Origin: a virus
Direction: 5' to 3' (one strand)
Length of the DNA: 20,522 nucleotides
IMG/VR virus record: IMGVR_UViG_3300028384_000520
Span: 1-20,522 of that record
In this document: positions 15,356 to 20,368 of the stretch, in pieces
Layout: each line of letters opens with the position of its first letter
Position numbering within the stretch: position 1 is the first letter of the stretch
Notes under the pieces: generated by a model
Told to the model about the DNA's origin: nothing
What the model saw: only the letters and a program-made list of their open reading frames with translations
Databases searched by the model: none
Position numbers and translations under genes: made by a program

Positions 15356-15383
15356 ATCTTACTACATACTCTTACCGTGTCAA
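15356..15383 (-). promoter_or_regulatory. Sigma-70-type promoter for the 15010-15318 gene
   Basis: A perfect TTGACA (15383-15378), 16-base spacer, then TAAGAT (15361-15356), four of six matches. The start would fall near 15349, about 30 bases before the gene start. It overlaps the last codons and stop of the primase-like gene upstream. Confidence 0.65.
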
Positions 15384-15790
15384 CAATTATTTTCTGCAAA
15401 TGCCAACTTTATTCCCTCTAGGCGATTGATGGCTAGCTTGTAGCGTTTCCACTCAGACAGCTTAGGCTCGTGACCATTGCTCTGTGCCTTCTCGTACATT
15501 CTGACGTACACGTCATCGCTCCACTGCTCGTCTAGCATCTTCGCTCGGTTTACTGCGACGCGATCGTAGTCGCCGCTATCCCGGAATAGTACTTTTGGCG
15601 ATAGTCCTAGCGAGTTGACAACGTCAATCCCCTTAGCGCCACAGGCAAAGCAGTGGCATAAAACCTTGCCATCCTTCTCTGCAATTGACATCGATGGGCT
15701 GCGATCTCCGTGAACTGGGCAACAGGCTGTCCACTTGTTAGTGCCTGTAGATTTGACCTTATCTAGCTGCGCCAGTATCTCTTCAACCAT
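15380..15790 (-). CDS. Stand-alone CHC2-type primase zinc finger protein
   Basis: A 136-residue protein. It has the zinc-binding pattern of DnaG-type primases in its first half: CPVHGDRSPSMSI with Cys24 and His27, then FACG with Cys47 and Cys50; extra Cys residues flank both (Cys23, Cys45). The spacing of the first pair (C-x2-H) and the later C-x2-C fits the CHC2 finger that reads template DNA for primer start. No TOPRIM or polymerising domain follows; the C-terminal half is a helical, Lys- and Glu-rich region. It begins within the helicase stop (8-base overlap), so the two are probably made together. It may recruit or guide a host or second phage primase, or be a regulator. Confidence 0.8.
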   Translation of the reverse strand: MVEEILAQLDKVKSTGTNKWTACCPVHGDRSPSMSIAEKDGKVLCHCFACGAKGIDVVNSLGLSPKVLFRDSGDYDRVAVNRAKMLDEQWSDDVYVRMYEKAQSNGHEPKLSEWKRYKLAINRLEGIKLAFAENNC

Positions 15791-17261
15791 TGTGCTTGCC
15801 CCTCGCCCACTTAATGTTGCTGTGTTTAATCCAATTCATCGTGTCATCACTGACAACGCCTGAGTCTCGTGCCTCTACCTTGTTTGGCCAGACTCCAAAG
15901 CGCTCCCGGTACTTGTTCAAAGCCCAACCGAGCTTGAACCCCTTTGATCTACCGTAGCGCTGCAGCTCACCGAGAAAGCGTGCCTTGTCCTCGTATGGCA
16001 TATCCCGGTTAGCCTTCTTCTTCTCTTTGACCTCTTCGAGAAGTGTACCGTCGGTCTCCATACGAGCCTCGATAGGTATCTCGTAGCCGCAACTGCAGCG
16101 TAACCCAACGAATGACTGGTAACACTGAGGGCAACTACGGGGTTTACTTTCCTTCTTTTCTTTGACCTGCTTTGCCTCGCTGAATGCCTTCTCGCCATCG
16201 TCTAGCTCTTCAGGCTCTAGCAGGTGTGGCATGCCTAGGCGCTCTAGGTTGCCTGCGTGATCGAGGTGTATTGCATACTCCTTGTCCGGAGCCATGCGCC
16301 AGATGCGGCCTGAGCGCTGTACAAAGCTGATCTGGCTAGAGCTTGGCTTGCAGTCGATCAAGCAACGGACAGACGGTGCGTCGTAGCCTGTGTTGAGTAA
16401 CTGGCTGCAGCTCAGGATCTTGAACTCACCGCGATCGTGTGCCTTGTAGAGCATTTCCCGCTCTTCCTCATCCATGTAACCGTCGATATGCTCAGCTGAG
16501 ATGCCTGCCTCTTGGAACATACCAACCATGAACTTGCTGTGAGCGATCGTCGGACAGAAGGCGATCGTCTGGCTATCCTCGCCATATTTCTGCCAGTTTT
16601 TGATGATGTCGCCGGCCAGAACCTTGTCATTTTCCATCCGCTTGCCAACGTGCTTAGGATCGAAGTCGCTGCCACCTGTTGCCAGTGCGCGACGTTTCAG
16701 ACCCTTCACATCAACAGATGCGCCGGCGTAATAGCGCACCGGGGTGAGAAAACCTAGATCCAGAAGCTGCTCAGCCGTGGATGGCACGACTAAATCGGTG
16801 TACCACTTGCCTAGCCCCTTGGAGAAAGGAGTGGCGCTCAGTCCTACGAATTTGACCTTGTTGTAGGACTCGAAGTATTTGGTCATGCTGTCATACAAAA
16901 CGTGCGCCTCGTCCACGACCGCAAAGTTGAACTCCAGTAGATTATGGCGTCTGGCCAGAGTCTGGATAGAACAGATCTGCACCATAGCACCAGGATTCCA
17001 CTTCCAGTGATTGCCTTGGATCACACCACACTCAATGCCTAGCTCGTCGAAAGTATCCAGTGCCTGTTGCACTAGCTTGATTCGATCGCAGATAAATACA
17101 CCTTTGATGCCCTTCTTGGCAGCTTCAGCAAGCATCCACGCTGCGACGCGTGTCTTGCCGAACGAGCATGGCGCTGCAAGCATTACGCGCTTGTGACCCT
17201 CTCTGAAGGAGTCCCGCAGCATTTCAATGGCTTCTTCTTGGTGTGGACGTAAACTAATCAT
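15783..17261 (-). CDS. SF2 DNA helicase with C-terminal zinc ribbon
   Basis: A 492-residue protein. Motif Q/I region LRPHQEEAIEML at 4-15; Walker A APCSFGKTR with Lys36; motif II DEAH at 117-120; motif III SATPF at 142-146; motif VI QRSGRIWR at 315-322. ResIII-like order, so a nucleic-acid translocase that uses ATP. A Cys4 ribbon follows at Cys377, Cys380, Cys389 and Cys391, after a charged linker. The last 90 residues are helical (KARFLGELQRYGRSKGFK) and basic, perhaps a DNA-binding tail. Start at ATG 17261 overlaps the previous gene by 8 bases and is preceded by GGGGG. It likely serves replication, recombination or fork restart, as UvsW-like enzymes do, but the exact role is not shown. Confidence 0.93.
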   Translation of the reverse strand: MISLRPHQEEAIEMLRDSFREGHKRVMLAAPCSFGKTRVAAWMLAEAAKKGIKGVFICDRIKLVQQALDTFDELGIECGVIQGNHWKWNPGAMVQICSIQTLARRHNLLEFNFAVVDEAHVLYDSMTKYFESYNKVKFVGLSATPFSKGLGKWYTDLVVPSTAEQLLDLGFLTPVRYYAGASVDVKGLKRRALATGGSDFDPKHVGKRMENDKVLAGDIIKNWQKYGEDSQTIAFCPTIAHSKFMVGMFQEAGISAEHIDGYMDEEEREMLYKAHDRGEFKILSCSQLLNTGYDAPSVRCLIDCKPSSSQISFVQRSGRIWRMAPDKEYAIHLDHAGNLERLGMPHLLEPEELDDGEKAFSEAKQVKEKKESKPRSCPQCYQSFVGLRCSCGYEIPIEARMETDGTLLEEVKEKKKANRDMPYEDKARFLGELQRYGRSKGFKLGWALNKYRERFGVWPNKVEARDSGVVSDDTMNWIKHSNIKWARGKHNG

Positions 17262-17550
17262 TAATGACCCCCTTTGCGTACATCTCGCCTTTCCTCACTT
17301 GGTATTCTTTTTGCGCTTGCTTGTGCATTGCGTCTAATTCTTCGTTAGAGAAGTGATTATTCTCTATCTCAACAAATGTGCGACCACCTAACTCAAATCG
17401 GTTCGCGTGAAATCCCCAAAAGTAGGGACTCTCACCTCTCAGGTATCCCACTGGGAATGACTCACCCTTGATGAAAAAGTATGCATGATTAGTGTTGTAA
17501 TCAACCGGACTCATCTTGGTTGTCTCTAGCTTTATCTTGTATTCGTTCAT
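17254..17550 (-). CDS. Small hypothetical early protein
   Basis: I choose ATG 17550, with AAGG 7 bases upstream, giving 98 residues; a TTG 15 bases earlier has no good ribosome site. The protein starts MNEYKIKLETTKMSPVDYNT and has an aromatic central part (NHAYFFIKGESFPVGYL, SPYFWGFHANRFEL) and a helical C-terminal half (SNEELDAMHKQAQKEYQVRK). No signal peptide or known motif. Its last eight bases overlap the helicase start, suggesting coupling. It is the first gene after the structured RNA region, and the RNA's last helix would lie just upstream of its ribosome site, so the RNA could control its translation. Confidence 0.72.
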   Translation of the reverse strand: MNEYKIKLETTKMSPVDYNTNHAYFFIKGESFPVGYLRGESPYFWGFHANRFELGGRTFVEIENNHFSNEELDAMHKQAQKEYQVRKGEMYAKGVIND

Positions 17551-17568
17551 CTTTGTGCCTTGCAATTC

Positions 17569-18056
17569 GGTTAGATCGGAGCAATTTGGGTGTAACTCAC
17601 CCTAACCCGCCTAAGCGAGCCGTAGTGAGTACCCTTGCAAAACGGCTGAGTCGTCGCTGCTTCGGGTGCAAGATCACTGGTACAAGCTCCTGCTGAGTCA
17701 GTTACGGCTGTTCGCGCCGCCTTCCTACGCCTGACTCCAATCTAGCTCTGCTACCACCGTAGGATTACTCCAGAATCGGCTCACTGCTAGATCACTCATT
17801 GCGTTGTGACAGGATTTGGGAAGATCCCTAGTGTTTAACGAGATAGGTGACTGCTTTACGCATGACCATGCTCGACCTGCCAACCCGGAAGGTGACGGTT
17901 GTCATCTAGGACGTTCTAGGGGAATGAGTGGGGTTGTATGTTAGTGATTACTAACGCTACAATGTGTTTCAGGACGTGCCGGAGTGCGTTACTCAGGAAC
18001 TCTTCTGAACTATCTCATTCCGGAACGCTAGGTGACTGGTAATCACCGTCCGGCAT
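17569..18056 (-). ncRNA. Large structured RNA candidate of unknown class
   Basis: About 490 bases without a gene that form a dense set of helices on the minus strand. Positions: 18049-18055 with 17977-17983 (7 pairs) closes a three-way junction holding 18043-18047/18031-18035 and 18024-18028/17986-17990, with linkers of only 1 and 2 bases. Next are 17958-17962 plus 17950-17955 with 17940-17945 plus 17934-17938 (11 pairs), 17897-17901/17881-17885, 17868-17871/17860-17863, 17825-17828/17818-17821, 17786-17792/17740-17746 (7 pairs), 17731-17737/17695-17701 (7 pairs, inner hairpin 17716-17719/17705-17708), 17679-17683 plus 17667-17672 with 17629-17639 (11 pairs), and 17602-17607/17569-17574 enclosing 17598-17601/17589-17592. 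Most bases lie in or beside a helix. I did not compute energies. Not tRNA, RNase P or tmRNA by eye. GOLLD, ROOL and OLE are large phage or bacterial RNAs to test against. Confidence 0.7.
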
Positions 18057-18062
18057 TGTTCT

Positions 18063-18091
18063 ACCTTAATGACGTTTCTCCTGCGCGTCAA
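18063..18091 (-). promoter_or_regulatory. Promoter candidate for the structured RNA
   Basis: TTGACG (18091-18086), a 17-base spacer and TAAGGT (18068-18063), with the -10 box overlapping the stop codon of the gene ending at 18066. The -35 has five of six matches, the -10 only three. Transcription would start near 18056, one or two bases before the first helix of the RNA. Confidence 0.5.
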
Positions 18092-18842: not shown

Positions 18843-18871
18843 AAGATAGGCTATCTAACTGTCAGCGTCAA
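18843..18871 (-). promoter_or_regulatory. Promoter with a palindrome over its -10 box
   Basis: TTGACG (18871-18866), a 17-base spacer, then TATCTT (18848-18843), four of six matches. A perfect 6-1-6 inverted repeat, AGATAGGCTATCT at 18844-18856, covers the -10 and would suit a dimeric repressor. The start would be near 18836, about 20 bases before the ATG at 18813. Confidence 0.6.
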
Positions 18872-19075
18872 CTATTTTCTTCTCAATCCGTAACCTTTTA
18901 GTAAAGATTTGCTTAATCCGTTTTAGATACTCGATGTCATAGCGTCTGATCTCACTCGTCTCTTCCAAGATCCTGACCTTTTCTTCGCCGATCCGTCTAA
19001 TAAGATTAATCCGATACTCGACGATGTTTCCGCTTTTGTGGAATCCGATACTCGACGATGTTTCCGCTTTTGTGG
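18855..19075 (-). pseudogene. ninG: Out-of-frame C-terminal part of ninG
   Basis: From 19041 to 18855 a different frame continues what ninG should encode: [10 protein letters not shown] is followed by [18 protein letters not shown], then a helical EYLKRIKQIF and a basic end. This matches the C-terminal arrangement of lambda NinG (V-P-Y-R-x-x-L-I-x-R-I-G). If one copy of the 34-bp duplication is removed, the frames join and give about 203 residues, close to the lambda protein (204). As the sequence stands, this part has no start of its own and is not translated unless by a frameshift. Confidence 0.8.
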
Positions 19076-19500
19076 TTATTGCAGACCGAGCACTGCTTGT
19101 GCACATTCCAAGTGTTATAGCGAATCTCAGGCGCCGCTGCGGTCGTTCTGTAATGGCCGGCATGATATTGACCTTGGTGATCTCTGCCACAGCTGATGCA
19201 CGGCTTATCCCTGTCTCGCCACCGTATCCAAGCGTTAAACGCTGTCTGCGCCTCCCTAGCCCACATAGATCGCGTCTTCATCCTATCTAGCTGCTCTTTT
19301 GTGTCTTGGCGTATGGCTTTGCGTACAGCTTTCTGGCCTGCTTCTGATTTAGTAAAAGCAACCAAGTGCTCAACAGAGCAAAAAGCCCGCAGGCCGCCGC
19401 GAACGGCTGACTCTGCAGGCACTTTCTTTTTGCAATAAGCGCAGCGTCTATTCTTGCTCTTCACACCACTTATCCGGCACGTCCTGATAGCTTGCGCCAT
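19006..19500 (-). CDS. ninG: NinG-like nuclease/recombination protein, shortened by a frameshift
   Basis: The 164-residue reading frame matches phage NinG. It has a first zinc-binding part with Cys20-Cys23 and Cys41 (CAYC, FCS), a [21 protein letters not shown] segment and [12 protein letters not shown] near residues 134-145, the Cys and His pattern of its HNH-like fold. NinG acts in recombination and DNA handling in lambda-like phages. The last 11 residues ([11 protein letters not shown]) are encoded by the second copy of the 34-bp repeat in the wrong frame. The start overlaps the upstream gene by 53 bases and has no good ribosome site; GTG at 19464 is another choice. The HNH part stays intact, so some activity could remain. 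Confidence 0.85.
19008..19075. repeat. Exact 34-bp tandem duplication
   Basis: Copies at 19008-19041 and 19042-19075 are identical and directly adjacent, and flanking bases differ, so the unit is exactly 34. As 34 is not a multiple of three it shifts ninG. Confidence 0.97.
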
Positions 19501-19660
19501 CGATAATGTTGATCACTGTGGTGTGGCCTATGCCGTACCTAGCAGCAATGTTTGCCACTGAGTAGACATCAGCCAGTCCACGATAGTGCAAACGCTTGCG
19601 GTTCAGGCAACGGATCTCGTCTACCTGCTCATTTGTTAACTTGCGATTGCCTTTAGGCAC
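19448..19660 (-). CDS. Small helix-turn-helix protein
   Basis: A 70-residue protein starting at GTG 19660 with a perfect AAGGAGG ribosome site 6 bases upstream. It begins [17 protein letters not shown] after a basic MPKGNRK, and its [20 protein letters not shown] at about 35-54 is a helix-turn-helix of the resolvase/homeodomain-like kind, as in small phage proteins of this form. A DNA-binding regulator is plausible. It overlaps the upstream gene by 8 bases and ninG by 53. No partner domain is visible. Confidence 0.8.
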
Positions 19661-19931
19661 CTTGTTCCTCCTTGAGCAAAACAGACTCTAATCGATCCGC
19701 AATATCCCTTAACTTATCTATCACATCTGCGTGATACCACGAGTCTTCAGGATCAGCATCTATAGCCTTTACGACTATCTCTTCCAAACTCCAAGAGTTA
19801 TGGAACATGAAGCACTCACAGTCAGGTCTGTAAGCGTAAACAGAAATATTTCCTGCTTCGCCATCCCACTCGCATTCAAATTCGTATTCAAGCTGCGATG
19901 AAGTCATCAAACGTTTTCTATTATTTATCAT
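19653..19931 (-). CDS. Small acidic hypothetical protein
   Basis: A 92-residue acidic protein. Start ATG 19931 overlaps the NinB stop (ATGA), with GAGAGG upstream. SSQLEYEFECEWDGEAGNIS and VYAYRPDCECFMFHNSWSL are followed by an acidic helical SLEEIVVKAIDADPEDSWYH and a helical end KLRDIADRLESVLL. The strand-then-helix layout suggests a small alpha/beta protein. I do not recognise a family. Confidence 0.72.
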   Translation of the reverse strand: MINNRKRLMTSSQLEYEFECEWDGEAGNISVYAYRPDCECFMFHNSWSLEEIVVKAIDADPEDSWYHADVIDKLRDIADRLESVLLKEEQGA

Positions 19932-20368
19932 CTATTTTGCCTCTCCATTAGCTTCATGTACTCACTATCTTCAGGGTGCGGCAGGTAAACGCCGACCTCT
20001 GTACCCCAGACATCGATCTGGGTCATGTAGTGGTGCATCTCACCTTTATCCAATTTAGCTGTTGACCTCAAAATATCCTTTAGCTCAGTTTTTCCTATGG
20101 TCTTGCTCTCGTAACCGAGGAACTTGTGACGCATCAGATCGTGCATGTCATCTTTTGACCATTCTGAGCCATCCTTAGCTCGTTTATTGAACGATTCAGA
20201 TAGCGTTGCCATCCACATCCAATAAAGACCATTCTGGCTAAGGGAGCGATTGCTGCCGGCTGACCATTCGATCTTGATAAAACCGTGATCAGCGATAGCA
20301 GCAGCACACTCCTTAAAGATAGAGGTCAGGTACTCGCGACTAGCGCAAATGTGCTGACCTTTTTGCAT
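19928..20368 (-). CDS. ninB: NinB-like recombination protein
   Basis: A 146-residue protein. Its SAGSNRSLSQNGLYWMWMAT (about 36-55) is the family mark of NinB (R-S-L-x-Q-N-x-x-x-W). Later come a helical KDDMHDLMRHKFLGYESKT, a Leu-Lys-rich helix, and GEMHHYMTQIDVWGTEVGVYL with a PHPED end, as in other NinB-like proteins. NinB binds single-stranded DNA and helps phage recombination (lambda Orf). The start (ATG 20368) overlaps the upstream stop by one base. It is in one operon with NinG, as in lambda, though two small genes separate them. The similarity is to the family, not to lambda NinB in detail. Confidence 0.78.
   Translation of the reverse strand: MQKGQHICASREYLTSIFKECAAAIADHGFIKIEWSAGSNRSLSQNGLYWMWMATLSESFNKRAKDGSEWSKDDMHDLMRHKFLGYESKTIGKTELKDILRSTAKLDKGEMHHYMTQIDVWGTEVGVYLPHPEDSEYMKLMERQNR

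Follow-up and report, generated by a model that had tools for sequence, protein, structure and literature searches.

Genomic setting of the gene-free region

What is encoded by the gene-free stretch at positions 17569-18056 of the DNA analysed here (the window), a 20,522-base piece of an uncultured virus with almost all of its genes on the minus strand? The initial annotation had proposed a long phage noncoding RNA of unmatched class, a view that is supported by the Rfam, homologue, covariation, folding and coding checks presented below. On the minus strand, NinB/NinG-type genes and small ORFs are followed by the gene-free stretch, a 98-aa ORF, a superfamily 2 helicase and a zinc-ribbon primase; after the primase come small ORFs, an intrinsic terminator that no other precedes on this strand downstream of the RNA promoter, and then the terminase and structural genes. 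The RNA locus is thereby placed between the NinB/NinG-type genes and the helicase-primase pair. The main features are as follows.

19928-20368, minus strand: NinB-type gene
19006-19500, minus strand: NinG-type gene
17558-18056, minus strand: structured noncoding RNA, 5' domain plus type B 3' domain (ends predicted)
17254-17550, minus strand: ORF directly after the RNA, 98 aa, no known family
15783-17261, minus strand: superfamily 2 helicase
15380-15790, minus strand: DnaG-type zinc-ribbon primase
14733-14710, minus strand: intrinsic terminator ahead of the terminase genes, also present in L007 and L098

A strong terminator before the terminase genes was found in the window and in these two close relatives, whereas most other relatives gave none. 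Within the NinG gene, in its 3' part, a tandem duplication of about 34 bases (19018-19075) appears to shift the frame, so that the end of the gene is read in ORF 18855-19190.

The 5' end of the RNA was set by the promoter and the first stem (P1), and the 3' end by the point at which conservation of the type B domain stops. The predicted ends, near 18056 and 17560, agree well with the limits originally given. Stop codons rule out a coding region, with 10-11 of them in each minus-strand frame; the genes on either side are complete, and the region is not coding in relatives. When folded, the minus strand of the window has z = -2.98, with 1 of 100 dinucleotide shuffles as good, and the plus strand has z = -1.43. 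Taken alone, the value for the window is a modest excess. Among 14 homologues the mean z is -2.5 for the transcribed strand and -0.9 for the opposite strand, and the surplus stability is thus specific to the strand that is transcribed.

Homologues and known RNA families

A search with the helicase gave four relatives, three of which have a gene-free region at the same place with recognisably common motifs, and a search with the terminase added a further relative (L007). Motif scans of viral contigs returned 14, 36, 6, 58 and 5 contigs, some of them chance matches; L137, L138, L170 and L128 were rejected as chance matches to the search patterns. After merging there are 62 loci (the window and viral contigs) with the 5' domain, representing 51 unique sequences. 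Several further loci (e.g., L087, L139, L148, L157) have the commoner type of 3' domain (type A) with a 5' domain that is divergent or missing. At positions 2240-2760 of L003, upstream of the helicase, a possible very distant member was seen by eye, with a TGTGTTGG/CCAACACA stem, a GAGG/CCTC hairpin and a type A-like tail, GTGACCACTATTGTC; it was left out of the count because the covariance model does not detect it.

Outside this group of viruses, nucleotide BLAST against phage isolates and plasmids gave no match. The 5'-domain pattern had six chance-like hits in 84,980 bacterial and archaeal genomes, and the type A model had three hits of 19-22 bits in 754 genomes of two bacterial classes, which skip most of the model or are weak and were taken as chance. 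Neither the window nor its homologues match a family in Rfam 15 at gathering or relaxed thresholds. The GOLLD and ROOL covariance models do not match the window or its homologues at relaxed E-values, and there is no match to the group I, group II and other ribozyme models in Rfam even at relaxed thresholds. ARAGORN finds no tRNA or tmRNA in the window, a Pfam scan of ten window genes finds no retron-type reverse transcriptase, and searches of open-access papers on large phage RNAs and antitermination brought up no description of this RNA class. Based on these comparisons and the conservation described below, it is very probable that this is a real and previously undescribed class of long RNA in a group of uncultured tailed phages. 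The novelty lies in the class, as long phage RNAs already have precedent.

The promoter

Directly upstream of the RNA is a sigma-70-type promoter (18063-18091, minus strand), TTGACG - 17 bp - TAAGGT, with 8/12 matches and a predicted transcription start near 18056. The 45 distinct upstream sequences of the class mostly show TTGACN - 16 to 18 - TANNNT, ending 6-9 bases ahead of the first base of P1. The mean match at these sites is 8.8/12, versus 5.7 at random positions, and 33 of the 45 score at least 9/12, versus 0.6% of random positions. This fixed geometry suggests that transcription of the RNA most likely starts from a promoter of its own, regardless of the gene upstream.

A constant 5' domain

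The 5' domain consists of stem P1 around hairpin P2, a pseudoknot (PK1), and then hairpin P3. In the window these elements are:

17897-18056, minus strand: constant 5' domain, module boundary near 17897
18049-18055, minus strand: P1 5' strand, TGCCGGA, pairs with 17983-17977
18031-18047, minus strand: P2 hairpin, GGTGA-TTACCAG-TCACC, 5-bp stem and 7-base loop
18014-18021, minus strand: PK1 5' strand, GGAATGAG, pseudoknot with 17928-17921
17977-17983, minus strand: P1 3' strand, TCCGGCA, pairs with 18055-18049
17934-17962, minus strand: P3 hairpin, 11 pairs, AATC loop, by direct reading
17921-17928, minus strand: PK1 3' strand, CTCATTCC, pairs with 18021-18014

P1 is a stem of 7-8 bp across homologues, occurring as GTGCCGG/CCGGCAC, GTTCCGG/CCGGAAC, ATACCGG/CCGGTAT (L169) and TTGCCGG/CCGGCAA (L123). 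Covariation was assessed with a tree-based test written for this analysis, with a null modelled on that of R-scape. Only three pairs in the 5' domain reach significance, namely the inner three of P2, each complementary in 51/51 sequences. P3, which had been noted from the window as an 11-pair hairpin, has counterparts in L098, L007 and L123 as judged by eye.

The three-way junction originally drawn in this region survives in part. Its outer stem (P1) and the covariation-supported hairpin P2 are conserved, but its third arm is not confirmed: the strand that follows P2 reaches beyond P1 and pairs instead with a segment past P3. The two strands of PK1 change together, from GGAATGAG/CTCATTCC in the window to GGACTGAAG/CTTCAGTCC, GGATTGAAGA/TCTTTAGTCC and GGATTGAGA/TCTCAATCT elsewhere, and their match scores 17.7, versus 12.7 for shuffles. 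Judged by this covariation in homologues, the supposed arm is a predicted pseudoknot.

Several smaller observations concern the same domain. The geometry of P2 is that of a tRNA anticodon arm, with a 5-bp stem and a loop of 7 bases that mostly fits NTNNNAR. In some cases the P2 loop of one phage is the exact reverse complement of that of another, as with TTGGCAG and CTGCCAA. A third CCGG element after P2 (window 18025-18016) could pair with either strand of P1; in L087 both it and P1 have changed, the element reading CGCG, and its partner in L148 is the 5' strand. These alternatives may hint at a refolding switch.

Two exchangeable 3' domains

Beyond the 5' domain the class divides into two dissimilar 3' domains, type A and the rarer type B carried by the window. 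The window (type B) and L098 (type A) share 86% identity from the promoter region as far as about 17897, beyond which they are unrelated. The same kind of break separates L114 (B) from L099 (A) after 94% identity, L108 (B) from L095 (A) after 89%, and L103 (B) from L104 (A) after 88%. In at least four pairs of phages, then, almost the same 5' domain runs into 3' domains that are dissimilar, and the 3' half is therefore an exchangeable module.

In type A, the tree-based test on 40 sequences gave five significant pairs, each complementary in 39-40 of 40. Some of these cross one another, and the type A domain is therefore also pseudoknotted. For a 25-pair structure on 23 aligned cores, pairing is 92.5%, versus 82.2% after shuffling and 32-50% (maximum 50.3%) when the structure is slid; 14 pairs are altered on both sides, with a covariation score of 0.329 versus 0.157. 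The type A covariance model detects L139, which was absent from model building, at 90.7 bits, and gives no match in the window, the other type B loci or five isolate regions.

The type B set comprises six sequences (the window, L123, L114, L103, L169 and L108). Its helices, in window coordinates, are:

17882-17876 / 17813-17807, minus strand: B1; own beats permuted pairing (12/2000)
17874-17871 / 17842-17839, minus strand: B2; own beats permuted pairing (5/2000)
17794-17786 / 17746-17738, minus strand: B3; 2/2000 permutations; sequence differs in every homologue
within 17738-17794, minus strand: B4, a weaker helix inside B3
17737-17731 / 17701-17695, minus strand: B5 (4/2000)
17720-17716 / 17708-17704, minus strand: B6, hairpin inside B5; hardly varies
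17693-17688 / 17673-17668, minus strand: hairpin B7 (11/2000)
17630-17624 / 17601-17595, minus strand: B9, in homologues reaching this far; weak covariation
17621-17616 / 17609-17604, minus strand: B8, in homologues reaching this far; weak covariation

Both strands have changed among homologues in B1, B2, B3, B5 and B7. For the nine helices in the five most complete type B sequences, the true assignment of strands scores 619, whereas over all 120 permutations the mean is 470 and the runner-up reaches 566. An 11-pair stem with a 6-base bulge (17629-17683), proposed initially, can be drawn in the window but is absent from homologues and incompatible with the supported hairpin B7, which takes its place. 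Gathering homologous intergenic regions, as the initial annotation had advised, thus revealed compensatory changes in P2, PK1, type A and type B; the promoter, the modular 3' domain and the pseudoknots were beyond what it could have seen.

A near-palindromic TTGCAA motif occurs twice in the type B 3' end (window 17642-17633 and 17567-17558). The two copies agree within each homologue and differ between homologues (GCAAGG, CTGCATGA, TTGGCACAA, GCAAAGG), as if they might pair with each other or bind one partner. At three of the six type B loci (L103, L114, L169) the RNA is followed by a gene for one and the same type of small protein, e.g., MDCPKGS...HEVKTL. A gene of this kind also follows one type A RNA (L125), and perhaps it travels with the 3' module.

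Downstream context across relatives

A helicase is encoded 0.4-1.8 kb downstream, usually with a primase, at 49 of the 53 loci with enough flanking sequence; the remaining 4 have no helicase within 3-7 kb of the RNA. Directly after the RNA, 16 gene families are found (helicase 20, two nuclease-like families 9 each, and others), as labelled by reading the sequences. This variety, together with the four loci that lack a helicase, argues against the RNA controlling a single specific gene. Between the tail of the RNA and the next start codon there are 12-24 bases at most type A loci. No terminator was found at the 3' end of the RNA in 68 loci, so that, as far as can be read from these loci, it would also form the 5' end of the operon messenger.

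Neither of two Q antiterminator families is present in 12 relatives, whose sequences may be incomplete, and there is no turn in GC skew at the RNA in six long relatives. An antisense RNA directed at a phage gene was rejected, there being no conserved target in the phage genomes and a single 15-base match in the window only. This match (19473-19487) lies at the end of a small ORF (19448-19660) that overlaps the NinG start; the messenger bases are complementary to the P1 3' strand, with no counterpart in the other relatives examined.

Possible functions

The varied neighbours and the exchangeable 3' domain favour a trans-acting RNA. Host RNA polymerase would make the RNA during infection and, because no terminator is present, it is proposed that the RNA would be freed from the operon transcript by cleavage in a single-stranded region past the last helix, and would then work in trans, either as a stable RNA or as a particle of RNA and protein. 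We put the probability of this reading at roughly 0.4-0.45; the missing terminators and the lack of a conserved antisense target argue against it. We tentatively suggest a division of labour, in which the constant, promoter-launched 5' domain would serve as a platform and the choice of partner or target in trans would lie with the swappable 3' domain.

The promoter-proximal position without a terminator brings a cis-acting leader of the helicase-primase, and perhaps the late, operon close behind, although we consider it rather unlikely. Here the nascent RNA would drive read-through or otherwise control expression; in one version, the folded RNA would make polymerase pass terminators or Rho sites, as does HK022 put. 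Such a leader would fit a promoter directly at the 5' end, the short distance to the next start codon at most loci, and the terminator that precedes the terminase genes of the window, L007 and L098. The RNA also sits after NinG, where the isolate relative phage YA3 has Q, and the lack of a Q family in the 12 relatives is compatible with a put-type role and says no more than that. However, put is smaller than this RNA by a factor of five to seven, intrinsic terminators are few or absent downstream in most relatives, and it is not obvious why an antiterminator would need two unrelated 3' domains that can be interchanged.

The constant linkage to helicase and primase leaves a role in replication, which is less probable again: the RNA might prime DNA synthesis, or an R-loop or particle might load the helicase and primase encoded downstream, and a promoter-driven structured transcript does resemble ColE1 RNA II. 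This sits poorly with the absence of a skew turn and with the four loci without a helicase, and phage gene order alone can explain the linkage.

A self-cleaving or self-splicing RNA with the 3' domain as catalytic core appears improbable. Crossing helices and the invariant internal-loop motifs ACAAACAGCG and TGCTGAT in type A would suit a ribozyme, but no Rfam ribozyme model matches, and the RNA starts at a promoter and lies between complete genes rather than inside one. Chance folding of an ordinary intergenic region can be dismissed, for although any 490-base RNA folds and the window alone reaches a z of only about -3, the homologues refute it with all of the covariation results and the fixed promoter geometry.

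Comparison with known RNAs and significance

Nearest in kind are GOLLD and ROOL, which are likewise long, elaborate, pseudoknotted RNAs of phages and prophages. They differ in sequence from the present class, as it lacks an Rfam match, and in length, being about 660 bases (ROOL) and often over 800 (GOLLD) versus about 350-490. They are often encoded near tRNA genes, whereas the window has no tRNA, and they form RNA-only multimeric cages. In GOLLD, too, one half is better conserved than the other, but there it is the 3' half, whereas here the 5' half is constant and the 3' half swappable (PMC12286853).

HK022 put shares with this class a structured RNA close behind a phage promoter, with no terminator before the operon genes. 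The put element has about 70 bases and two hairpins, unlike the 350-490 bases, two domains and pseudoknots found here. ColE1 RNA II is similarly promoter-driven, structured, several hundred bases long and located beside replication genes; the present class differs in having no Rfam match, no turn in GC skew and a swappable 3' domain. Phage group I and II introns are comparable in size range, pseudoknots and phage location, whereas the RNA described here has no Rfam match, has its own promoter and lies outside any gene.

Phage genomes are packed with genes. That about 1% or more of a 35-45 kb genome is spent on this RNA, and that its fold is kept in more than 60 phages, implies an important job. 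To our knowledge, very few classes of long phage RNA have been described, and we know of no function for those nearest in kind. With its boundaries, a covariation-backed pseudoknotted fold, a promoter, a fixed neighbourhood and domain swaps in hand, the structure, expression and function of this class are directly testable.
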